From Paludibacter jiangxiensis (GTDB lineage Bacteria > Bacteroidota > Bacteroidia > Bacteroidales > Paludibacteraceae): DNA of 64,000 bases. Of the stretch, positions 6,012 through 64,000 are shown one piece after another. The position numbers and the translations under genes were made by a program. Position 1 is the stretch's first letter; the number at the start of each line of letters is the position of its first letter. The stretch spans positions 1 to 64,000 of the forward strand of contig CAMDGD010000003.1 of NCBI GenBank assembly GCA_945897785.1, in the 5' to 3' direction. The notes under the pieces are model-generated. The model was not told the origin of the DNA. It was given only the letters and a program-made list of their open reading frames with translations, and searched no databases.

Positions 6012-6057
6012 AAAGAGCGCAAACTATTGACTTATATTCAATAATTTGCGCTCTTTT
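6012..6057 (+). terminator. Intrinsic terminator downstream of nitroreductase
   Basis: aaagagcgcaaactattga / tcaataatttgcgctctttt long inverted repeat ending in T run. Confidence 0.75.
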
Positions 6058-6078
6058 ACATGTGCTGAGCTAAAAAAA

Positions 6079-7450
6079 GGTAGTATCTCACTAACTGTGT
6101 AAGTTGAAAAGTTATTCTGAAAATTATTTTGAGTCCACAAAAACTCAAAAAATAATTTTCGGAAATAACTTTTTGCTATTTTTATAAACTACATAGTTAT
6201 GATTGACAAAGAAGAATTATTAAACAACAAGGACTTTTATAAGTCTTTCAAGAATGGAGCGGATTTAACATCCTTCTTCAAAGAGATGCACAAAAGAGCA
6301 GTGGAACATATGCTCGAGGTAGAACTTGATTCTCATTTGGATTATGAGAAACATCAAAAGACCAGTACAGGTAATTATCGTAATGGGCATGGCTCCAAGA
6401 AGATAAAGACCTCATTTGGAGAAGATGAAATTAAAGTCCCCCGAGATAGAGATGGTTCATTTGATCCTATGTTGGTTCCCAAAAGACACAATATCATTGA
6501 AGGGTTGGAAAACATCATTATCTCATTCTATGCCAAGGGAATGAGTGTAAGTGATATTGAGGAACAAATAAAAGAAATGTATGATTTTGATGTTTCCACA
6601 TCCACCATTTCTCGTATCACCAATGCTGTTGCCAGCGAAGCTCTTGCGTGGCAAAATAGACCATTAGAGGAGCTTTATTTGATAGTTTGGATGGATGGTA
6701 TTGTTTTTAAAGTTCGAGAGAACTCCAAAGTGATAAATAAAACAATTTATCTAGCAGTAGGGCTTACCAAAGAAGGAAAAAAGGAAGTCTTAGGTATGTG
6801 GCTTGGTAAAAACGAGTCTTCCAGCTTCTGGATGAGTGTTTTAACTGATTTAAAAGCTCGTGGGGTAGAAGATATTTTAATTACTGCCACAGACAACCTT
6901 AATGGATTTACTCAAACTATCAAAAGCGTTTTCCCTGAGTCTCAAACACAAATCTGCGTAGTGCATCAAATCCGAAATGCCTGCAAATATGTGGTTTGGA
7001 AGGATAGAAAAGAGTTTTCTGCCGACATGAAACACATTTATACTGCTCCAAACAAACAAGCTGCAGAAATGGCCTTAAAGGACTTTGCTGCTAAATGGGA
7101 AACTAAATATGCTTATGCTATAAAATCTTGGAGAGATAACTGGGATGAACTTACTGTGTTTTTTGACTTCCCTTTAGAAATCAGAAAAATCATCTACACA
7201 ACCAATTTAATAGAAAATTTGAATGGTAAAATTAGAAAATACACTAAAAATAAAATGTCTTTTCCAACGGATGACGCAGTGCTAAAATCAGTATATCTTG
7301 CTCTAAAAGAGGCTACTAAAAAATGGAGTATGCCTATCCAGAATTGGGGTATTGTTTTGAACCAATTTGTTCTTATATTTGAAAAAAGGCTCAGATTATA
7401 AAATCCAAGCCTTAACTTTTCAACTTACACACTTTATGGGATAGTGTCAC
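6079..7450 (+). mobile_element. IS256-family insertion sequence, apparently intact
   Basis: Transposase flanked by imperfect inverted ends: ggtagtatctcactaactgtgtaagttgaaaagtt (6079-6113) versus reverse complement of aacttttcaacttacacactttatgggatagtgtcac (about 7414-7450), 17 bp perfect core; both ends abut A-tracts. Confidence 0.85.
6199..7401 (+). CDS. IS256 family transposase
   Basis: 400 aa; [84 protein letters not shown]. Confidence 0.95.
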
Positions 7451-27278: not shown

Positions 27279-28643
27279 ATGAATAAACTAAGCTATACAG
27301 TTTTGTTGTGTTTAAGCATCATGTTTTCCGGATTGAGTTATGCTCAAAAATTTAAAACAGAATTTAAACTGCGCGAAGTGGCTAAAGATACCGTTTGTGT
27401 AAATATGCAAACAATAAACAGCCCCTATGACGACTATTTGCCTTTTTTAATTGGCAAAAAAGACATGCTGTTTACATCCAACAGAAAAAACACGCAAGAA
27501 GGCCAAACCTTACAATACTCAGAAAAAGTATATTGGACGCGTGAAAAAAAGAAAAACGATTGGCAAAAACCAAAAAAGAATGGGTATTCATGGAATAGCG
27601 ATAACAACACCGCTTTAATAGGTATTGGTGACGCCTTGTATTATTTTTATCGTTCGTACTGGAAAGATAATGGAGAGATTTTTACTGCCGAACGCGACAC
27701 CAAAGGGAAAGAACCTTGGCAAGCGTCCAATTTAAAAAAGATGAATTACATCTGCACCAAGTACGATGAAAATTCAATTACTCCATCGAATGGGGATAGT
27801 GTATTTTTTGTTTCGAACCGCAATGGAAACTACGATATCTTTCTACAAGTAGGTGAAGCAAAAGCTTCTCCGGTAGAAATACTTAACACCGAATACAACG
27901 AAAATGATGTGTTTTTCAGTTTTGCCAACCAAACGCTGTATTTTAGTTCAAACCGACCAGGAGGCATTGGTGGCTACGATATTTACAGAGCACCAATAAT
28001 TGACAATACCTTCTCTGCACCAGAATTACTACGAGACACCATGATAAACAGCAGTTCTGACGATAGAGATTTTAGATGGTATAATGATTCGTTGATGTAT
28101 TTATCTTCTAATCGACTAATGGGACTCGGCGGATTTGACATCTACAATATTCGTGTAAAAAGCCGAAATGTTTACGACACCATCATTACAGAAATTCCGA
28201 TTATTGTTGACACTATTAAAGACCTAAAAGGCGAACTGTATGCAAAACTAAAAGAATTAGGTTTGTTCCCATTTAGAGGAGAAGTACAAGTAGGTGCATA
28301 CAGATATATCCCCTCCTTAGATGACTTCTTAACAAAATTCCCTTGCATTAAAACGCAAAACATCCGTATGGATAAAATTATTGTGGATGATAGCATAACT
28401 GTACATAAGTATATAGTAGATACGCTTTATACGGATGTTGATAAGGCTGTAAACAAACAAATTGAAATTGAAGCCATGCGTTGCTTGCCCGACGAAGTTT
28501 TTTCTGATATGCCATTTATTGGTATGTTAGATAAAGACAAAAACCGATATGCCATATTCTGGAAAAAAGATGAGTTCCACACCAAAAAAGTTTTTTATAT
28601 CTTTAAAAACGGGAAACAAATTTGGAAAACCCGTCTATTCTAA
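27279..28643 (+). CDS. PD40-repeat exported protein, T9SS-associated (PorE-like context)
   Basis: 'NSPYDDYLPFLIGKKDMLFTSNRKN', 'FFVSNRNGNYDIFLQ', 'LYFSSNRPGGIGGYDIYRA' PD40 motifs. Confidence 0.75.
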   Translation: MNKLSYTVLLCLSIMFSGLSYAQKFKTEFKLREVAKDTVCVNMQTINSPYDDYLPFLIGKKDMLFTSNRKNTQEGQTLQYSEKVYWTREKKKNDWQKPKKNGYSWNSDNNTALIGIGDALYYFYRSYWKDNGEIFTAERDTKGKEPWQASNLKKMNYICTKYDENSITPSNGDSVFFVSNRNGNYDIFLQVGEAKASPVEILNTEYNENDVFFSFANQTLYFSSNRPGGIGGYDIYRAPIIDNTFSAPELLRDTMINSSSDDRDFRWYNDSLMYLSSNRLMGLGGFDIYNIRVKSRNVYDTIITEIPIIVDTIKDLKGELYAKLKELGLFPFRGEVQVGAYRYIPSLDDFLTKFPCIKTQNIRMDKIIVDDSITVHKYIVDTLYTDVDKAVNKQIEIEAMRCLPDEVFSDMPFIGMLDKDKNRYAIFWKKDEFHTKKVFYIFKNGKQIWKTRLF

Positions 28644-28660
28644 AATAAAACTTAATATAT

Positions 28661-28698
28661 AAAAAGCGCACAAAGGAAGAATCCCTTGTGCGCTTTTT
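28661..28698 (+). terminator. Intrinsic terminator
   Basis: aaaaagcgcacaaagg-aagaat-cccttgtgcgcttttt. Confidence 0.75.
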
Positions 28699-28788
28699 AG
28701 TTTATAAGACCTTAATTATTGAAAAGAATAGTCAAGAAAAACGATATTTTGTTACTTTTGCAAGCAAACTCATAAAACAACCAAAAAC

Positions 28789-49509: not shown

Positions 49510-49866
49510 ATGAAAAAAATTGATGCAATTATTCGAAAAACCAAATTTGACGATGTACGAGAAGCATTAGACAAAATAGACATCGAATGGTTTTCTTACT
49601 ATGAAGTAAGAGGCGTAGGTAAAGCAAAACAAAGCCGCATTTATCGGGGCGTGGCTTACGACACAAGTTATATCGAACGAATACTGGTAAGCATTATTGT
49701 TCGAGATAAAAATGTAGAAAAAACAGTGAAAGCTATTGAGAGTGCTGCCAAAACAGGCGAAGTAGGCGACGGGCGAATTTTTATCATCCCTGTTGACGAT
49801 GCCGTTAGAATCAGAACAGGAGAATCGGGCGATATAGCACTTTATAACGCAGAAACTGAAAAGTAA
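49510..49866 (+). CDS. P-II family nitrogen regulator, copy 1
   Basis: MKKIDAIIRKTKFDDVREALDKIDIEWFSYYEVRGVGKAKQSRIYRGVAYDTSYIERI...AAKTGEVGDGRIFIIPVDDAVRIRTGESG. Confidence 0.93.
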   Translation: MKKIDAIIRKTKFDDVREALDKIDIEWFSYYEVRGVGKAKQSRIYRGVAYDTSYIERILVSIIVRDKNVEKTVKAIESAAKTGEVGDGRIFIIPVDDAVRIRTGESGDIALYNAETEK

Positions 49867-49890
49867 ATTACCACCTAAAAATACACAAAA

Positions 49891-51120
49891 ATGACACAAG
49901 AAATTTTAGAAGTAGTCAGAGGTATAGATACCATGTGGCTATTAATAGCAGGATTCTTAGTAATGTTTATGCAAGCCGGATTTGCATTGGTCGAAGCAGG
50001 TTTTACACGATCAAAAAATACAGCTAACATTCTTATGAAAAACTTAATGGACTTTGCCATCGGATCCTTATTGTATTGGTTTATCGGTTTTGGAATAATG
50101 TATGGTTGGAGTTTCACTCCATTTTCAGGAGGAAACGAAGCTTTAACTGCGTTTGGTGAAGGATACAACTATCCTGGATATGCCGATTTGTTTTTCCAAA
50201 CCGTATTCTGTGCAACTGCAGCAACCATAGTATCAGGTGCAATGGCAGAACGCACTGAGTTTAAAGCTTACTTGATTTTCACAGTTATTATTTCGGTTAT
50301 TATCTATCCAATTTCCGGTCATTGGACTTGGGGTGGCGGATGGTTAAAGGAAATGGGATTTCATGATTTTGCAGGCTCTTCTATCGTACACTCTGTTGGT
50401 GGCTGGGTAGGTTTAGCCGGTGCTGCAATCATTGGCCCTCGTATTGGTAAATACGGAAAAGACGGAAAAGCAAAAGCAATTCCAGGTCACAACTTACTAT
50501 TAGGAGCCTTAGGTGTGTTTATTCTTTGGTTTGGATGGTTTGGTTTCAACCCCGGCTCTCAATTAGCTGCATCAGGAACAGACAACGCTATAGCAATTGG
50601 TCACATTGCAGTTACAACTAACTTAGCTGCCGCAGCAGGTGCCGTTACAGCAATGATCGTAGCTTGGTTCCGCTATAAGAGACCTGTATTATCGATTTCA
50701 TTGAACGGTGCATTAGCCGGTCTTGTAGCAATCACAGCCGGTTGTGATGCTGTTGATCCTGAAGGTGCAGTTATCATTGGTATTGTAGCCGGTTTTGTAT
50801 TACCGTTTGCAGTTGAATTCTTTGATAAAATATTGAAAGTAGATGACCCTGTAGGCGCTATCTCTGTACACGGTGTAAGTGGTGCATTAGGAACATTAGC
50901 TGTAGGTTTATTCTCTACATCTGAAGGATTATTCTACGGACATGGGGCTCATTTACTTGGCGTACAAGCAATTGGTGTACTTGCTTTCTTTGCTTGGGCT
51001 TTTGGTACCGGTTTAATACTATTTTTCATATTGAAAAAAGCAGGCATACTTCGCGTATCTAAAGTAATTGAAGAAGAAGGCTTGGATGTTTACGAACACG
51101 GAGAAACTGCTTTCAATTAA
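49891..51120 (+). CDS. Ammonium transporter, copy 1
   Basis: VMFMQAGFALVEAGFTRSKNTANILMKNLMDFA...AMAERTEFKAYLIF...GHWTWGGGWLKEMGFHDFAGSSIVHSVGG. Confidence 0.95.
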   Translation: MTQEILEVVRGIDTMWLLIAGFLVMFMQAGFALVEAGFTRSKNTANILMKNLMDFAIGSLLYWFIGFGIMYGWSFTPFSGGNEALTAFGEGYNYPGYADLFFQTVFCATAATIVSGAMAERTEFKAYLIFTVIISVIIYPISGHWTWGGGWLKEMGFHDFAGSSIVHSVGGWVGLAGAAIIGPRIGKYGKDGKAKAIPGHNLLLGALGVFILWFGWFGFNPGSQLAASGTDNAIAIGHIAVTTNLAAAAGAVTAMIVAWFRYKRPVLSISLNGALAGLVAITAGCDAVDPEGAVIIGIVAGFVLPFAVEFFDKILKVDDPVGAISVHGVSGALGTLAVGLFSTSEGLFYGHGAHLLGVQAIGVLAFFAWAFGTGLILFFILKKAGILRVSKVIEEEGLDVYEHGETAFN

Positions 51121-51145
51121 TCACAGATCTTATAATCCTTTTATT

Positions 51146-51181
51146 AAGGGGATGGTTGCATGGCAACCATCCCCTTTTTTA
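51146..51181 (+). terminator. Intrinsic terminator after amt copy 1
   Basis: aaggggatggttgc-at-ggcaaccatcccctttttt. Confidence 0.85.
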
Positions 51182-51356
51182 TATCCAGAATAGATACCTG
51201 GACAATAGATCAAAGAACAAAGAGTAAAAACAAAAGACAAGTTTTATATTATACACTTCTTTTGTCTTAATATTATTATTTTTGTCATTTAAAAATCAAT
51301 TTTAATTACTTTATGTTATATTTATAATGATTTTACTATTATTTTGATGTATATAT

Positions 51357-51387
51357 TTTGTTTTTTTAAACACTATGCTTATTTTTG
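51357..51387 (+). promoter_or_regulatory. Candidate promoter of second PII-amt unit (TTTG-N19-TATTTTTG)
   Basis: TTTG at 51357-51360, TATTTTTG at 51380-51387, 53 nt before ATG 51440. Confidence 0.55.
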
Positions 51388-51439
51388 TAGCGTATTAAAA
51401 AAAACACATCTATTACAAACCATAAAAATCAAAGATCAA

Positions 51440-51784
51440 ATGAAAAAAATCGAAGCAGTTATTCGAGTATCTAAGTTCGAAGAGGTAAAGCAAGCGCTTT
51501 ACGATGTGGATATTCAATGGTTTTCCTACTGGGACATTACCGGATTAGGAAGAAGTACAGAAGATCAGATCGTACGGGGACAAGTTTTTCAATCTAGCTA
51601 TATTCAACGGCGTATGCTCTCCGTTGTTGTACGCGATCAGAATGCAGAAAAAACAATCAAAGCCATTATGAATGCAGCACGAACAGGAGAAGCCGGCGAC
51701 GGGAAAGTTTTTGTGTCGGATATAGAAAACTCCTACCGCATACGCAATGCAGATGAAGGACCGGAAGCGCTTTATATAAAATAA
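51440..51784 (+). CDS. P-II family nitrogen regulator, copy 2
   Basis: MKKIEAVIRVSKFEEVKQALYDVDIQWFSYWDITGLGRSTEDQIVRGQVFQSSYIQRRMLSVVV...AARTGEAGDGKVFV. Confidence 0.93.
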   Translation: MKKIEAVIRVSKFEEVKQALYDVDIQWFSYWDITGLGRSTEDQIVRGQVFQSSYIQRRMLSVVVRDQNAEKTIKAIMNAARTGEAGDGKVFVSDIENSYRIRNADEGPEALYIK

Positions 51785-51811
51785 CCCTTTTAAAAGAAAA
51801 ATCGAAAAATC

Positions 51812-53179
51812 ATGAAAAAATATATCATATCACTCCTTGCCTTATTAAGCTTTTTCAGCTTACCGGCTCTTGCTACAGAAACAACTGTCACCCCTACAAT
51901 CAACACAGGAGATACCGCTTGGATGATTGTAGCCATTGCCTTTGTACTTATGATGTCTATTCCGGGACTAGCCTTGTTTTACGGCGGATTGGTTCGTAGA
52001 AAAAATATTCTTAGCGTATTTATGCAAGTATTTATCTTGGTTGCCGCTATTAGTGTTCAATGGGTAGTATTTGGATACAGCAACGCTTTTGGAACCAACT
52101 CAATTGAAGCATTAAGGCCATTTATTGGTGGATTTGATTGGGCGTTTTTAAAAGGCATCGGCATCAATGATTTGAGTCCTTATTTTATTTCCAACTCACA
52201 ATTAGCTGCTGATGGTAGTGATATTGGCACTATTCCCCACATTATCTTTATCATGTTTCAATGTATGTTTGCCGTTATTACTCCGGCATTAATTATTGGT
52301 GCTTTTGCCGAAAGAATCAAATTCAAAGGCTTTTTAGTGCTTAGCATTTTGTGGGCAATAATAGTTTACAACCCTGTTGCACATTGGGTATGGTCGGCCG
52401 ACGGTTGGTTATTAGCATTAGGAGCACTCGATTTTGCCGGCGGAGCCGTTGTTCACATAAACGCAGGTATTGCCGCCTTAGTAATTGCCATTATGTTGGG
52501 CAAAAGAAGAGATTATAAAGGACATGCGCTACCTCCACACAATATTCCGTTTGTAGCTATTGGCGCGGCGTTACTTTGGGTAGGCTGGTTTGGCTTTAAT
52601 GCAGGTAGCGGTTTAGCGGCAGATGGATTAGCAGCAAATGCCTTAATGGTAACGCATATTGCAGCTGCCAGCGCAGCCTTTGTTTGGGCAATACTTGATT
52701 GGATTGTTGGAAAGAAACCAACCCTGGTAGGAATTTCAACCGGAGCCGTTGGTGGATTAGTAGCCATTACTCCGGCCGCCGGATTTGTTGATGTAACCGG
52801 TGCTTTAGCCATAGGAATTCTAGTATCCTTAGTGTGTTTCTTTATGGTTGCTACAATTAAACCAAAACTTGGATACGACGATTCGCTCGATGCATTTGGA
52901 GTACACGGTATTGGTGGAGTTGTTGGAGCTTTAGCCGTTGGTTTTTTAGCCAACCCAAGCATACAAGAATCATATAGCGGAGCATTTTACGGAAACTGGA
53001 ATCAGGTAGGCATACAAATATTATCCGTTTTAGCAGTAGCAGCTTATTCCGCCATCATGACCTTCATCTTATTTAAAATTACCGATAAATTTATAGGTGT
53101 ACGAGCAAGCGATAAAGATGAAGCTGTGGGTCTAGATGAAACCATGCACCACGAAACAGCATATACCGTCTTTGATTAA
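51812..53179 (+). CDS. Ammonium transporter, copy 2 (with signal peptide)
   Basis: NTGDTAWMIVAIAFVLMMSIPGLALFYGGLVRRKNILSVFMQ...AFAERIKFKGFLVL...DFAGGAVVHINAG. Confidence 0.96.
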   Translation: MKKYIISLLALLSFFSLPALATETTVTPTINTGDTAWMIVAIAFVLMMSIPGLALFYGGLVRRKNILSVFMQVFILVAAISVQWVVFGYSNAFGTNSIEALRPFIGGFDWAFLKGIGINDLSPYFISNSQLAADGSDIGTIPHIIFIMFQCMFAVITPALIIGAFAERIKFKGFLVLSILWAIIVYNPVAHWVWSADGWLLALGALDFAGGAVVHINAGIAALVIAIMLGKRRDYKGHALPPHNIPFVAIGAALLWVGWFGFNAGSGLAADGLAANALMVTHIAAASAAFVWAILDWIVGKKPTLVGISTGAVGGLVAITPAAGFVDVTGALAIGILVSLVCFFMVATIKPKLGYDDSLDAFGVHGIGGVVGALAVGFLANPSIQESYSGAFYGNWNQVGIQILSVLAVAAYSAIMTFILFKITDKFIGVRASDKDEAVGLDETMHHETAYTVFD

Positions 53180-53240: not shown

Positions 53241-53273
53241 AACAGTAGTAAACTAGTTTACTACTGTTTTTTT
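53241..53273 (+). terminator. Intrinsic terminator after amt copy 2 (perfect palindrome)
   Basis: aacagtagtaaactagtttactactgttttttt. Confidence 0.85.
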
Positions 53274-53587: not shown

Positions 53588-53595
53588 TATCTTTG
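53588..53595 (+). promoter_or_regulatory. Candidate -7 box (TATCTTTG) for gltB leader transcript
   Basis: Exact TAnnTTTG; TTTA 18 nt upstream as a weak -33. Confidence 0.45.
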
Positions 53596-53725
53596 TGGCT
53601 GTATAGTGGTACAGGGGCATTTTCTTACATATTGAAAACTTGCAGTCTTATTCCATGTAACTAATTCTTTTAGTTACAATGATGCATATGCATTATCAAA
53701 AATGATTATGTCTTCTTTACTTAAA

Positions 53726-53901
53726 AAGGTACAGTAGTTTTCTCAACATTTTAAATCAACAACAAGAGCTTTTTTCTTACATAAGATTCAAAGTTGTTAC
53801 TAACTACATGCCCCACCTTATACAGTTGCAGTGATGCAATATGTATAAAAGGTCTCCTCTAACAATACTTAGAGGAGATTGGTGGGGAGTTACTGTACCT
53901 T
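53726..53901 (+). ncRNA. Structured leader RNA upstream of gltB (candidate cis-regulatory RNA or sRNA)
   Basis: 11-bp outer stem aaggtacagta(53726-36)/tactgtacctt(53891-901); ccccacc(53811-17)/ggtgggg(53881-87); hairpin 53818-53848 with GUGA loop; hairpin tctcctcta/tagaggaga 53853-53878. Confidence 0.65.
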
Positions 53902-53943
53902 GAAAATTATTTAATATTAAAACTAAAAATAGGGGGCTAATCT

Positions 53944-56900
53944 ATGTATTTAAGGAATGCTCAGGGACTATATAATCCCGAGAACGAACACGACGCATGT
54001 GGAGTTGGTTTAGTTGTACAAATCAACGGGAAAAGATCGCATAGTATTGTAGAGCGAGGATTGCAAGTATTAGAAAATATGGAACACCGTGGCGCGGAGA
54101 GTGCCGACAACAAAACTGGTGATGGTGCAGGATTAATGCTGCAAATTCCACACGAATTTATTCTACTACAAGGTATTGCAGTACCAGAAAGAGGGTTATA
54201 CGGAACAGGACTTGTTTTTCTACCAAAACAAAAAAGCCAAGCAGAAGCGTGTATAAAAATTATGCGTGAAAAAATTGAAGCTGAAGGATTAATGCTTACA
54301 GCTGTTCGTGACGTGCCTGTAAATAGCGATATTTTAGGTGAAATTTCGCTCTCTAACGAACCTCAAATAAAACAAATATTTGTTACGGGAGGTTCTGACC
54401 AAAAACAATTAGAACTAAAATTATATCTTGTTCGCAAAAAAATAGAGAAAACAGTTACTCAATCAACTATATCAGAGAAGAATAGTTTTTATATTGTAAG
54501 TCTTTCTACACAAAGAATAGTGTACAAAGGAATGCTTACTTCCGAACAATTAAGACATTATTTCCCAGACTTAACAGACAGTCGCTTAACTAGTGCCATC
54601 GCATTGGTTCATTCTCGTTTCAGCACCAACACTATGCCTACATGGCCATTGGCTCAACCTTTTAGATTATTGGGGCATAATGGAGAAATTAACACCATCA
54701 AAGGAAACCGCTTTTGGATGGAAGCCCGAGAAAGCGTATTAAAATCAGAGCAACTGGGTGACCTAAAGGAAATTTTCCCAATTATACAACCAGAAATGAG
54801 TGACTCGGCATCTTTTGACAATGCCTTAGAATTTTTGGTAATGTCAGGAAAATCATTACCTCATGCTATTGCTATGATGGTTCCTGAAAGCTGGAACGAC
54901 AAAAATCCAATATCCAGTGATTTAAAAGCTTTCTACGAATACCACAGTATCTTTATGGAACCATGGGACGGACCGGCAACTTTGTTGTTTACAGATGGTC
55001 GTTACTGTGGAGGAACTTTAGACCGGAATGGCTTGCGTCCGGCTCGTTATCTAATTACAAAAGACGATATCATGATTGTAGCTTCTGAAACCGGAGTGCA
55101 AAATATTGATATAAATAACATTAAAGAAAAAGGCCGTTTAAGTCCGGGTAAAATGTTGATGGTAGATACAGAAACCGGACAAGTAATGTACGACCCTGAG
55201 CTTAAGAAAAATCTTGCAAAAGCTTTTCCTTATAAAGAATGGTTGAATGATAACCGTATTGATATTAGCAATATATCATCCGGTAGGTCTGTAAAGAATG
55301 GAATATCTAACTACCATTCAATGTTGCAAACATTTGGTTATTCTAAAGAAGATGCCGAAGTGTTGATTTTACCCATGGCAAAAGACGGGCAAGAACCAAC
55401 AAATTCTATGGGAAACGATGCTTCTCTTGCGGTTTTCTCTGATAAACCACAGTTGCTTTTTAACTATTTCCGCCAGCTCTTTGCTCAAGTAACAAATCCA
55501 CCTATTGACCCAATTCGTGAAGAATTAGTGATGTCATTAACCGGATATATTGGTTCTTTGCATAAAAACATGCTAGATGCCATACCCGAACATTGTAAAG
55601 TTGTTAAAACAAAAAATCCTGTTATAACAAATAAGGAGTTTGATCTTATAATTAACCTCAGATATAAAGGCTTTACTACAGAAGTATTGCCTATGGTTTT
55701 TCCTGTCAAAGATGGTAAAGATGGCATGGAAAAATCCTTAAAAGAATTATGTTTGCAAGCAGAGAAGGCTGTTGATGCTGGCAAAAACTACATCGTTTTA
55801 AGTGATAAAAATGTAAATAAAGACATGGCTCCTATCCCATCTTTATTAGCCGTTTCTGCAGTACACCACTATCTAATTGATAAAAGGAAAAGAATGCAAA
55901 TAGATTTAGTGGTAGAATCTGGAGAACCACGGGAAATTATGCACTTTGCTTTATTATTTGGGTACGGAGCAAATGTTATAAATCCCTATTTAGCATTTTC
56001 AATAATAGAAAATCAAATTGCAAAAAATAACCTGAATTTAGACTTTGATACAGCAGAGAAGCATTTCATAAAAGCTATTAATAAAGGCTTATTAAAAGTT
56101 TTATCTAAAATGGGGATTTCTACTTTACGGTCTTACAGAGGAGCTCAGATTTTCGAAGCTGTCGGCCTAAACTCAAGCATTTTAAGTAAATATTTCAAGG
56201 GCACCACATCTAAAATTGAAGGTGCTGATTTAAGTGACATTGCAAATGATGTAATCAAAAATCACAAAAAAGGATTCTTTTCTGAAGAATTACCTGATGC
56301 GTTAACTGAAAATAATGGTATTTATAATTTCCGAAAAACCGGAGAGAAACACTCTTGGAGTCCTGAAGTAATTGCTAAACTACAAATTGCAACCAAAACA
56401 GGCAACTACCAAATTTTTAAAGAATTCTCTAAATTGGTAGATGAAAACCCCGGGAAGATTTTCCTTCGTGATTTCCTAGATTACAAACGAAATCCTATTA
56501 ACATTTCTGAAGTAGAACCCGTAAGTGAAATAACAAAAAGATTTGTTACTGGAGCAATGTCATACGGTTCTATCAGTGCTGATGCTCATGAAGCAATGGC
56601 TATTGCCATGAATAAGCTAGGAGGGAAATCTAACACAGGAGAAGGAGGAGAAGACCCTGAACGATTCAAAAAACGCCCTGACGGGACAAGTGCTCGCTCA
56701 GCCATAAAACAAGTGGCATCTGGTCGTTTTGGTGTTACAACTGAATATTTAGTAAATGCCGATGAATTACAAATAAAAATTGCACAAGGAGCAAAACCAG
56801 GTGAAGGAGGTCAGTTACCCGGATATAAAGTAGATGAGATTATTGCAAAAACCCGTCACTCAATTCCAGGAATTTCATTAATTTCTCCACCACCCCATCA

Positions 56901-58449
56901 CGATATTTATTCTATAGAAGACTTAGCACAATTGATTTTTGATTTAAAAAATGTCAATCCCAAAGCTCGGGTTACGGTTAAATTAGTTTCCGAAAGTGGT
57001 GTTGGAACAGTAGCCGCTGGAGTAGCAAAAGCAAAAGCAGATATGATTCTTATCTCCGGATGCGAAGGGGGTACTGGAGCTAGTCCGTCAAGTTCAATTA
57101 AACATGCAGGGCTTCCGTTAGAAATTGGGTTAGCAGAAACCCAACAAACATTAGTTATGAACAACCTGCGTGGTCAAGTTCGTTTACAAGCAGATGGTCA
57201 GCTTAAAACTGGCAAAGACATCATTATTTCTGCCCTTATGGGAGCTGAAGAATATGGTTTTGCTACATCGGCATTAATCGTTTTAGGATGTGTCATGATG
57301 CGTAAATGCCATGTAAATACTTGTCCACGTGGAGTAGCAACTCAAGACCCTGAATTAAGAAAAAGGTTTATTGGTCGCTACGAATACTTAATCAACTACT
57401 TCACGTTTTTAGCAGAAGAAGTTCGTGAACATTTAGCTGCGTTAGGGTATAAAAACCTTGATGAAATTATTGGCCGTACCGACTTAATCGAATATATTCC
57501 AGAAGGGTATAATGAAAAAGTTAAAAAACTAGACTTTTCAAAATTATTATTTATCCCTGCAGAAGCAAAGAAAAATGCGCTGAGAAATGTAAAAAAACAA
57601 TTACACCGTATTGACGATGTAATTGACAGAAGTTTAATTGAAGAAGCCAAAGTTGCTATTGAAAATGGCTTGTCCGTTTCTTTAAACCGCGACATAAAAA
57701 ACACCGACCGAACAGTTGGAGCTATGTTATCTGGAGAGATTGCGTTGCGCTATGGATACGCCGGCTTACCGGAAGATACGATAAAATGTTCTTTTAAAGG
57801 TTCGGCTGGTCAAAGCTTCGGAGCTTTTTTAGCTAAGGGAATTAGCTTTCGTTTAGAAGGAGATGCAAACGACTATTTAGGAAAAGGATTATCTGGTGGA
57901 AAAATTACCGTTGTTCCTCCAATAGGATACGACTTTAAACCGGAAAACAATATTATTGTAGGAAACACACTTCTTTATGGTGCAACGAGTGGTCAAGTTT
58001 TTATAAATGGTCGTGCTGGAGAACGATTTTGCGTACGTAACTCGGGAGGAGTAGCAGTTGTTGAAGGAGTTGGTGACCATTGTTGCGAATACATGACAGG
58101 CGGTCGTACGGTTGTTCTTGGTTCTACCGGAAGAAATTTTGCGGCTGGTATGAGTGGAGGTGTGGCTTATGTTTGGAATGTAAACGGCGATTTTGATTAT
58201 TTCTGCAACATGGAAATGGTTGAATTATCTTTAATTGAAGACATGAGCGATAATCGTGAGTTAAAAGAACTAATAACCGAACATTACAAATACACACAAA
58301 GCCCTCTTGCTAAGATGCTATTAGACAGCTGGGAGAATTATGTCGATCAATTTATCAAAGTAGTACCAATCGAGTATAAAAAAGTGCTTCATGCTGAAAA
58401 GATGGATGCAATAAATAAAAAAATTGCTCAAGTAAACAGAGACTATTAA
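53944..58449 (+). CDS. gltB: Glutamate synthase (NADPH-type) large subunit
   Basis: 1501 aa; MYLRNAQGLYNPENEHDACGVGLV, NTKTGDGAGLMLQIPHEF-like amidotransferase, FMN domain SGCEGGTGASPSSSIKHAGLPLEIGLAE, GXGXG domain at C-terminus. Confidence 0.97.
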   Translation: MYLRNAQGLYNPENEHDACGVGLVVQINGKRSHSIVERGLQVLENMEHRGAESADNKTGDGAGLMLQIPHEFILLQGIAVPERGLYGTGLVFLPKQKSQAEACIKIMREKIEAEGLMLTAVRDVPVNSDILGEISLSNEPQIKQIFVTGGSDQKQLELKLYLVRKKIEKTVTQSTISEKNSFYIVSLSTQRIVYKGMLTSEQLRHYFPDLTDSRLTSAIALVHSRFSTNTMPTWPLAQPFRLLGHNGEINTIKGNRFWMEARESVLKSEQLGDLKEIFPIIQPEMSDSASFDNALEFLVMSGKSLPHAIAMMVPESWNDKNPISSDLKAFYEYHSIFMEPWDGPATLLFTDGRYCGGTLDRNGLRPARYLITKDDIMIVASETGVQNIDINNIKEKGRLSPGKMLMVDTETGQVMYDPELKKNLAKAFPYKEWLNDNRIDISNISSGRSVKNGISNYHSMLQTFGYSKEDAEVLILPMAKDGQEPTNSMGNDASLAVFSDKPQLLFNYFRQLFAQVTNPPIDPIREELVMSLTGYIGSLHKNMLDAIPEHCKVVKTKNPVITNKEFDLIINLRYKGFTTEVLPMVFPVKDGKDGMEKSLKELCLQAEKAVDAGKNYIVLSDKNVNKDMAPIPSLLAVSAVHHYLIDKRKRMQIDLVVESGEPREIMHFALLFGYGANVINPYLAFSIIENQIAKNNLNLDFDTAEKHFIKAINKGLLKVLSKMGISTLRSYRGAQIFEAVGLNSSILSKYFKGTTSKIEGADLSDIANDVIKNHKKGFFSEELPDALTENNGIYNFRKTGEKHSWSPEVIAKLQIATKTGNYQIFKEFSKLVDENPGKIFLRDFLDYKRNPINISEVEPVSEITKRFVTGAMSYGSISADAHEAMAIAMNKLGGKSNTGEGGEDPERFKKRPDGTSARSAIKQVASGRFGVTTEYLVNADELQIKIAQGAKPGEGGQLPGYKVDEIIAKTRHSIPGISLISPPPHHDIYSIEDLAQLIFDLKNVNPKARVTVKLVSESGVGTVAAGVAKAKADMILISGCEGGTGASPSSSIKHAGLPLEIGLAETQQTLVMNNLRGQVRLQADGQLKTGKDIIISALMGAEEYGFATSALIVLGCVMMRKCHVNTCPRGVATQDPELRKRFIGRYEYLINYFTFLAEEVREHLAALGYKNLDEIIGRTDLIEYIPEGYNEKVKKLDFSKLLFIPAEAKKNALRNVKKQLHRIDDVIDRSLIEEAKVAIENGLSVSLNRDIKNTDRTVGAMLSGEIALRYGYAGLPEDTIKCSFKGSAGQSFGAFLAKGISFRLEGDANDYLGKGLSGGKITVVPPIGYDFKPENNIIVGNTLLYGATSGQVFINGRAGERFCVRNSGGVAVVEGVGDHCCEYMTGGRTVVLGSTGRNFAAGMSGGVAYVWNVNGDFDYFCNMEMVELSLIEDMSDNRELKELITEHYKYTQSPLAKMLLDSWENYVDQFIKVVPIEYKKVLHAEKMDAINKKIAQVNRDY

Positions 58450-58522: not shown

Positions 58523-59947
58523 ATGGGAAATCCAAAAGGTTTTTTAACTATAGAAAAAAAAGAAGCTGGTTACCGTCCTATTCATGAACGGATAGCCGAC
58601 TTTGGAGAAGTGGAACAAACATTGAACTCAGAAGATAGAAAACTACAAGCCGCTCGTTGTATGGACTGTGGTGTTCCCTTCTGTCATTGGGCTTGTCCTG
58701 TAAGTAATAAAATGCCTGAATGGCAAGATTTATTATTCAAAGGGAAATGGAAAGAGGCCGTTGATTGTTTACAATCAACAAACGATTTTCCTGAGTTTAC
58801 CGGTCGCATATGTCCTGCTCCATGCGAGAAAGCTTGCGTATTGAATCTTGATGACAATAGCGTAACCATTCGCGAAAACGAAGCAGCCATTATTGAACAT
58901 GCATTTGAACATGGTTACATAAAACCAACCCCGCCAAAAACCCGCAATGGTAAAACTGTTGCTGTTATTGGTAGCGGCCCTGCTGGTTTGGCTGCAGCAA
59001 ATCAATTAAATAAAAAGGGATATACCGTAACCCTATTCGAGAAAGAAAATGCATTGGGAGGTTTACTTCGCTATGGTATCCCTGATTTTAAATTAAACAA
59101 ATCAGTAATTGATCGTCGATTAGAAATATTTAAAGCAGAAGGTATCGAATTCAAAACAAACACCGAAGTAGGAAAAGATATTCGTGGGGCTGAAATTTTA
59201 AATAAATTCGATGCTGTTCTTATTGCTATTGGAGCTCAAGTTCCACGCGATTTACCTATAGAAGGACGCCAAATAGCCGGAATTCATTTTGCTATGGATT
59301 TTTTAACCCAACAGAACCAGTTAAATCGTGGTGAAGAAATAACCGAAGAAACAAAAATTTCAGCTAAAGGAAAAAATGTATTAGTTATTGGAGGAGGAGA
59401 TACAGGATCTGATTGTGTGGGAACTTCTATTCGACAAGGTGCTAATAGTGTAACACAAATAGAAATACTCCCAAAACCTCCCGAAGGCAAAAATGATGAA
59501 ACCCCTTGGCCCTACTGGCCAAATACGTTACGAACTTCTAGTTCTCATAAAGAAGGATGTAATCGTCGCTGGAGCATGGCTACAAAGAAATTCATTGCAA
59601 ACAAAGACGGAAAACTATCGGGAGTTGAGGTAGTTGAAGTTGCTTGGGAAAAAGATAAAACCGGTCAATTTAAAATGAAAGAGGTAGGTAAACCCGAAAT
59701 TATAAAAGCAGAATTAGTTACCTTGGCAATGGGCTTTATTAACCCTATTCATGACGGATTAGTAAACGAATTAGGATTAGAAAAAGATGCTCGTGGAAAT
59801 GTAAAAATTGACCCAAAAACTTTTCAGACTTCAGTTGCAAAAGTTTTTGCTGCCGGTGATGCTGCCACAGGAGCAAGTTTAGTTGTACGCGCCATCGATT
59901 CGGGCAGAAACGCATCGACTCAAATTGATACATTTTTAACTAAATAA
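58523..59947 (+). CDS. gltD: Glutamate synthase small subunit
   Basis: MGNPKGFLTIEKKEAGYRPIHERI...ARCMDCGVPFCHWACPVSNKMPEWQDLL...VAVIGSGPAGLAAANQL. Confidence 0.97.
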   Translation: MGNPKGFLTIEKKEAGYRPIHERIADFGEVEQTLNSEDRKLQAARCMDCGVPFCHWACPVSNKMPEWQDLLFKGKWKEAVDCLQSTNDFPEFTGRICPAPCEKACVLNLDDNSVTIRENEAAIIEHAFEHGYIKPTPPKTRNGKTVAVIGSGPAGLAAANQLNKKGYTVTLFEKENALGGLLRYGIPDFKLNKSVIDRRLEIFKAEGIEFKTNTEVGKDIRGAEILNKFDAVLIAIGAQVPRDLPIEGRQIAGIHFAMDFLTQQNQLNRGEEITEETKISAKGKNVLVIGGGDTGSDCVGTSIRQGANSVTQIEILPKPPEGKNDETPWPYWPNTLRTSSSHKEGCNRRWSMATKKFIANKDGKLSGVEVVEVAWEKDKTGQFKMKEVGKPEIIKAELVTLAMGFINPIHDGLVNELGLEKDARGNVKIDPKTFQTSVAKVFAAGDAATGASLVVRAIDSGRNASTQIDTFLTK

Positions 59948-62887: not shown

Positions 62888-62988
62888 GGATTAGAAAATA
62901 ATTTGTGTGAAGGTAGTAAATGGAAGGGAAAAGACAAAATATTTTGCTTATAGTCAACCAGTGTAATTTACGATATCGACGAACAAAC

Positions 62989-63023
62989 AAAAAACCCTCA
63001 ACTAATAAGTTAAGGGTTTTTTT
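62989..63023 (-). terminator. Terminator of glutamine synthetase gene
   Basis: aaaaaacccttaac-ttat-tagttgagggttttttg on the minus strand. Confidence 0.75.
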
Positions 63024-63041
63024 ATCTTAAAAAATCAAGAA

Positions 63042-64000
63042 CTATACTTGTCCTGATTTTTTAGTTGTTTTTACAATAACAGCTCCAATTTGATAAGGAC
63101 AACCATTAGACGCTGGACGACGATCTTCCAAACGACCTTTCCATCCATCTTCTACAGTACCTACAGGAATACGGATAGAAGCACCACGGTCAGACACACC
63201 CCATGAAAAGTCATGGATTGATGCTGTTTCGTGTTTACCAGTTAATCGTTGTTCGTTGTATGCACCATAAACAGACATATGTTCGCTTACATGTTTGCCA
63301 AATTCTTCGCAAATAGCATCAAACACTTTCTTATCTCCACTATTTCTCATTTTACTATTAGAGAAATTTGCGTGCATTCCAGAACCATTCCAATCTGTAT
63401 CTCCAAGAGGTTTTGGATGCCATTCTACATAAACGCCGTATTTTTCACAAGTTCTTTCTAACAAGAAACGAGACACCCATATTTCGTCACCGCCCAATTT
63501 TGCTCCTTTAGAAAAAATCTGATACTCCCATTGACCGGTAGCTACTTCTGCATTAATACCTTCAATATTTAACCCCGCCTCTAAACAAAGATCAAAATGC
63601 TCTTCAACAATTTCTCTTCCAAAAGCATTACGAGCTCCTACCGAACAATAGTAAGGCCCTTGTGGACGATCAGGGAAACCACCTTTTGGAAAACCTAAAG
63701 GCATTCTTGTTTCTATATCATATAAAAAGTACTCTTGTTCGTATCCAAACCAGAAGTCATTATCATCATCATCAATTGTTGCACGATGATTAGTAACATG
63801 TGCTGTTCCATCTGGATTTAAAACTTCAGTCATAACTAAATATGCATCTTTGCGATCAGGATCAGGACAAATAAAAACAGGTTTTAACAACAAGTCAGAA
63901 GACCCACCTTTAGCCTGATTAGTAGAAGATCCATCAAAAGACCACATCGGACAATCTTCTAATTTTCCACTAAAATTTTCTTTGATACGAGTTTTGCTTC
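63042..64000 (-). CDS. Glutamine synthetase, GSII (eukaryote-like, short) type; 5' end beyond window
   Basis: CPMWSFDGSSTNQAKGGSSDLLLKPVFICPDP...WFGYEQEYFLYD...NGSGMHANFSNSKMR...RRPASNGCPYQIGAVIV; frame stays open to the right edge. Confidence 0.92.
   Translation of the reverse strand, partial: SKTRIKENFSGKLEDCPMWSFDGSSTNQAKGGSSDLLLKPVFICPDPDRKDAYLVMTEVLNPDGTAHVTNHRATIDDDDNDFWFGYEQEYFLYDIETRMPLGFPKGGFPDRPQGPYYCSVGARNAFGREIVEEHFDLCLEAGLNIEGINAEVATGQWEYQIFSKGAKLGGDEIWVSRFLLERTCEKYGVYVEWHPKPLGDTDWNGSGMHANFSNSKMRNSGDKKVFDAICEEFGKHVSEHMSVYGAYNEQRLTGKHETASIHDFSWGVSDRGASIRIPVGTVEDGWKGRLEDRRPASNGCPYQIGAVIVKTTKKSGQV

Follow-up and report, generated by a model that had tools for sequence, protein, structure and literature searches.

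Genes and transcription unit at the gltB locus

The window analysed here, a stretch of 64,000 nucleotides from Paludibacter jiangxiensis, carries the genes of both glutamate synthase subunits on its forward strand, behind a long inferred leader. Genome G003, referred to below, belongs to the same genus.

53588-53595, + strand: TATCTTTG, probable -7 promoter element of gltBD, matching TAnnTTTG; also found before the G003 leader (L029:2914-2907)
53600-53943, + strand: 5' leader inferred for gltB, running from the promoter box up to the ATG (z -5.9)
53944-58449, + strand: gltB, glutamate synthase large subunit (NF008730, 1791.8 bits)
58523-59947, + strand: gltD, glutamate synthase small subunit (TIGR01317, 635.6 bits)

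The TAnnTTTG motif is the -7 element of Bacteroidota promoters (PMC7366714). The sequence around the box shows weak similarity between the window and G003 (score 93 against a shuffle maximum of 95; 2/300). A terminator-like hairpin (53241-53268) is located between the upstream Amt gene and this box. Because of this hairpin and of TATCTTTG at 53588-53595, gltBD is probably a transcription unit of its own, having a leader of approximately 345 nt counted from the predicted start.

Positions 49510-53179 carry two PII-Amt pairs in succession, which differ in the type of Amt. The first Amt matches the marine subtype TIGR03644 far better than the second, and the second is the better match to AmtB (NF007947). 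In the first-pass annotation these neighbours were taken as a pointer to nitrogen or amino acid sensing by the leader. They have no bearing on it, as gltB of G003 has no PII-Amt unit upstream of it and the terminator-like hairpin stands in between in the window. Other upstream regions of the window also fold strongly (6039-6198, 28629-28788 and 62888-63047; z -4 to -5 against mononucleotide shuffles), and these are possibly terminators of neighbouring genes.

Fold of the leader RNA

The region 53726-53901 had been proposed, from inspection of the sequence, to form a large structured RNA with an 11-bp closing stem around a three-way junction. Its predicted minimum free energy was -59.4 kcal/mol, compared to a mean of -33.3 kcal/mol (sd 3.8) for dinucleotide-shuffled sequences (z -6.93, 0 of 200 shuffles as low), so that the comparison with shuffles gave no ground for refuting a structured RNA. 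The core alone gave z -7.3, and the leader from the predicted transcription start to the start codon (53600-53946) z -5.9. The helices are as follows.

53726-53736, + strand: P0 5' strand, aaggtacagta, one side of the 11-bp closing stem; sequence not conserved in G003
53811-53817, + strand: P1 5' strand, CCCCACC (pair probabilities 0.97-1.0); sequence kept in G003
53818-53848, + strand: P2 arm with a bulged A and a GNRA loop (GUGA), the conserved element
53851-53880, + strand: P3 hairpin, 53851-62 paired with 53869-80; in G003 a hairpin of unrelated sequence takes its place
53881-53887, + strand: P1 3' strand, GGTGGGG, from pair probabilities
53891-53901, + strand: P0 3' strand, tactgtacctt, perfect complement of 53726-36

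The P1/P2/P3 three-way junction dominates the ensemble, with pair probabilities above 0.9 for most pairs of the three helices; those of P0 range from 0.68 to 1.0. The reverse strand folds nearly as well. Most helices named in the first-pass annotation were recovered, i.e. the perfect complementarity of 53726-36 and 53891-901, the ccccacc/ggtgggg pairing (53811-17/53881-87) that closes the junction, the GUGA-loop hairpin at 53818-48 and the 9-bp hairpin tctcctcta/tagaggaga (53853-61/53870-78). The aacaac/gttgtt stem (53758-63/53793-98) was absent both from the minimum free energy structure and from the pairs with a probability above 0.5. The closing stem is real in the window, but the single homologue described below does not keep the sequence of this stem. 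Upstream of P0, at 53656-53697, there are two more hairpins, TGTAACTAA/TTAGTTACA and TGATGCA/TGCATTA, which do not occur in the G003 leader and could be DNA operator sites.

A homologous leader in G003

Orthologues of gltB were collected from 55 of 120 relatives and complemented with 80 named loci, the nearest of which belong to Paludibacter and other Bacteroidales. A single leader was recognisably homologous, that of G003, where it also precedes gltB and the GltB protein is 89 % identical. This leader contains CCCCACCU and the P2 arm UCAUACAUCUGCAGGGAUGUAGCAUGUAUAA, as well as a P3-like hairpin whose sequence is unrelated and a closing G-rich strand. When P1 5' strand and P2 were aligned together to the G003 leader the score was 132, the best of 300 shuffles reaching 93, and for the P2 arm 0 of 300 shuffles were as similar. 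Conservation extends to the 3' linker and the start-codon region (116, shuffle maximum 109); the part of the window upstream of the core (53600-53800) is not conserved in G003.

Nine of the 13 pairs of P2 are invariant between the window and G003. One has changed in a compensatory manner, one from G-C to G-U, and two (one U-A and one G-U) are lost; with two homologues, the covariation check thus consists of one compensatory pair, one one-sided change and two departures. The loop is GUGA in the window and GGGA in G003, a GNRA loop in both. The G003 core folded better than shuffles (z -2.8, 1/200), the whole G003 leader barely so (z -1.75, 12/200), and with P2 held fixed the P1/P3 part gave 20/500. 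An 81-aa GTG-initiated ORF on the minus strand (L144:5250-5495) crosses the G003 leader and extends into gltB in a different frame; it is probably due to chance.

The leader RNA stands before the same gene in the genome of the window (G000) and in G003, with different genes upstream, as expected of a cis-regulatory leader. A structured RNA in the gltB leader, as first proposed, is supported and is linked to gltB in two species.

Distribution

A covariance model built from P1 5' strand and P2 (R1) identified the window and G003 leaders and no other among 358 genomes of the family. No further homologue was obtained from samples of the order (393 genomes) and the phylum (346 genomes). The stricter filters of these large searches, that of the family included, may miss distant relatives. 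With the same model the RNA was not there in the gltB leaders of other Bacteroidales (56 loci). Weak matches at L142 (22.9 bits), at L147 (26.6 bits) and in genome G001 (14.9 bits) are at the level of chance for the number of genomes searched, and at L142 and L147 the surrounding sequence is unlike a gltB leader. Viral contigs and plasmids contained no homologue, and the RNA is present in a single copy in its genome, which rules out a mobile repeat or MITE. BLASTN of the leader against 60 relatives returned only short chance matches and missed the G003 homologue, because the exact stretches shared by the two leaders are very short.

Two other members of the genus have neither a gltB match nor the RNA. 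Genome G025, whose GltB is 86 % identical to that of the window, has a short leader with neither the RNA nor the G-run described below. By sequence comparison, it is the gltB gene of this genus that the RNA accompanies, rather than the PII-Amt units, since the RNA is lacking in G025 and in the genus members without gltB and since the G003 gene has no such unit upstream.

No Rfam family matched anywhere in the window at the gathering score. Even at E values up to 10, the two leaders gave only implausible families, and the remark of the first-pass annotation that the RNA belongs to no known class was borne out. The glnA RNA (RF01739) and the Downstream-peptide RNA (RF01704), which form the glutamine riboswitch group, are likewise leaders of nitrogen-assimilation genes, and glnA RNAs have also been found ahead of glutamate synthase genes (PMC2864571). 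They have been described from Cyanobacteria and marine samples, and neither leader matched them at E up to 10. The Bacteroid-trp leader (RF01692) shares with the gltB RNA that it is a cis-regulatory leader listed for Bacteroidetes; it differs in that it too was absent from the matches of both leaders at E up to 10, and that the gltB RNA is not followed by a terminator. The structured leader RNA at 53726-53901 is real; it belongs to a known general kind, is uncatalogued in Rfam and has a narrow distribution.

The G-run at the gltB start and predicted alternative folds

Both leaders end in the same short motif, 6-7 nt before the ATG:

53931-53937, + strand: AGGGGGC, G-run in the gltB initiation region; kept in G003

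Among the 46 long ORFs of the window the G-run occurs only before gltB, and AGGAG precedes one other. At this position GGGG was present in 3 of the 102 gltB loci having enough upstream sequence, namely the window, G003 and L044; at L044 it is unrelated and belongs to a CCCCTC...GAGGGG hairpin, of which it forms one half. In the genome of the window, the glnA leader has no G-run ahead of the ATG. The RNA and the G-run thus occur together in the gltB leaders of the window and G003 and are both missing from G025.

Shine-Dalgarno sequences are generally absent in Bacteroidota (PMC6847099), and in Prevotella bryantii structure in the initiation region strongly lowered translation while an added Shine-Dalgarno sequence was of no help (PMC3155529). 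On these grounds we infer that the conserved G-run is better read as a target for base pairing than as an aid to ribosome binding. Two strands of the window leader take part in the predicted alternatives:

53608-53614, + strand: P0', second copy of GGUACAG, which pairs with the P0 3' strand in the alternative fold with a free initiation region
53704-53716, + strand: predicted pairing partner of the initiation region at 53931-53942 (pair probabilities about 0.8-0.94)

As GGUACAG occurs twice in the leader (53608-53614 and 53728-53734), two closing stems that exclude each other are possible, one with each copy as the partner of the P0 3' strand. In the favoured fold of the window (-89.8 kcal/mol) the initiation region is paired with 53704-53716, around P0. 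The fold in which P0 3' strand pairs with 53608-14 and the initiation region is free (-87.5) costs only 2.3 kcal/mol. A fold in which the P1 C-run binds the G-run is less favourable (-82.2), and one in which the P3 5' strand does so is poor (-72.3). The folds of the G003 leader also lie close together (-60.9 with a hairpin competing with P1, -59.5 with P1, -57.0 with the P1 C-run on the G-run), these gaps, like that between the paired and free folds of the window, being within the error of the energy model. Bistability of the leader is plausible from these predicted energies. The two leaders are predicted to use different strands for pairing with the G-run, no counterpart of 53704-53716 being seen in G003, and the switching scheme is drawn from energy predictions and not from conservation. 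No terminator-like site was found on the plus strand between the core and gltB, and control of translation is therefore likelier than transcription attenuation.

Discussion

We consider it somewhat probable that the RNA is a cis-acting leader of gltBD, restricted to the genus as far as searched, which controls initiation of translation by way of base pairing at the G-run. This motif, seldom seen upstream of genes in this DNA, would serve as the pairing target. The leader would alternate between folds with the G-run paired (to 53704-53716 in the window, to a local strand or else to the P1 C-run in G003) and folds that leave it unpaired. The conserved P1/P2 junction would read a signal that biases the choice of fold, and this choice would set the synthesis of glutamate synthase. 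The signal may be a metabolite, glutamine or 2-oxoglutarate being candidates because they fit the gene, or an RNA-binding protein, which fits equally well. Translation-initiation riboswitches in general resemble the gltB leader: in both, a long 5' leader contains a junction, together with strands that can form pairs close to the start codon. The gltB leader differs from them in its target, a G-run in bacteria whose phylum makes little use of Shine-Dalgarno pairing, in being represented by two homologues only and in having no assigned ligand.

A riboswitch proper, whose P1/P2/P3 junction would have glutamine, 2-oxoglutarate or some other nitrogen metabolite as its ligand and would directly control gltBD, would account for the compact junction with its sequence-conserved arm, the predicted alternative folds and the position before a metabolic gene. 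We nevertheless regard it as unlikely: the conserved bases are mostly helical, the conserved unpaired core typical of many aptamers is lacking, there are two homologues only and the known glutamine riboswitches do not match. Slightly less likely still is the more specific proposal of a new, genus-restricted riboswitch class for glutamine or 2-oxoglutarate which hides or exposes an added G-run by the gltB start codon. Hairpins with a bulged A and a GNRA loop are a usual form of protein site, and the concentration of conservation in a single such hairpin is what would be expected if an RNA-binding protein, and no metabolite aptamer, recognised the P2 arm. This explanation has about the same low probability as the riboswitch proper, given that there is no candidate protein and that P1 and a P3-like hairpin are kept as well. 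The very stable fold of the window, with P1 favoured by about 6 kcal/mol, could also be a static element which protects the mRNA or simply lowers translation without sensing anything; conservation of P2 in sequence, beyond its structure, and retention of the G-run ahead of the ATG make this equally doubtful.

Two further explanations have to be considered far less probable. The P2 arm contains a palindrome, TTATACA...TGTATAA, and the good folding of the reverse strand would suit an imperfect palindrome acting in DNA as the binding site of a regulator. P2 is located about 220 bases downstream of the promoter box, however, the G-C to G-U change breaks DNA symmetry while preserving RNA pairing, the GNRA loop is kept and P1 and P3 flank the arm, all of which makes a DNA operator very unlikely. 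In leader-peptide attenuation, ribosomes stalling on a tiny ORF would select the fold. Two candidates overlap P0 or P1/P2 strands, MPHLIQLQ-stop from the ATG at 53808 (53808-53834), rich in Gln codons, and MSSLLKKVQ-stop from the ATG at 53708 (53708-53737), and the PHLI(Q/H)LQ frame reads through in G003 as PHLIHLQ. In that frame G003 has neither the ATG nor the stop, so the short ORF is not conserved, and the lack of a plus-strand terminator-like site past the core is not what an amino acid attenuator would show; attenuation is accordingly the least probable of the explanations considered.

Control of glutamate synthase at the RNA level in Bacteroidota was not found described in our literature search. 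If the leader RNA proposed here to act on translation initiation is regulatory, it would provide such control in this phylum, and would be one of the few leader RNAs of nitrogen assimilation outside Cyanobacteria. A G-run conserved ahead of the start codon, where genes of this phylum avoid such sequence, provides a convenient test of how translation can be regulated without Shine-Dalgarno pairing. With its narrow range, the gltB leader would exemplify a young, lineage-specific leader RNA.
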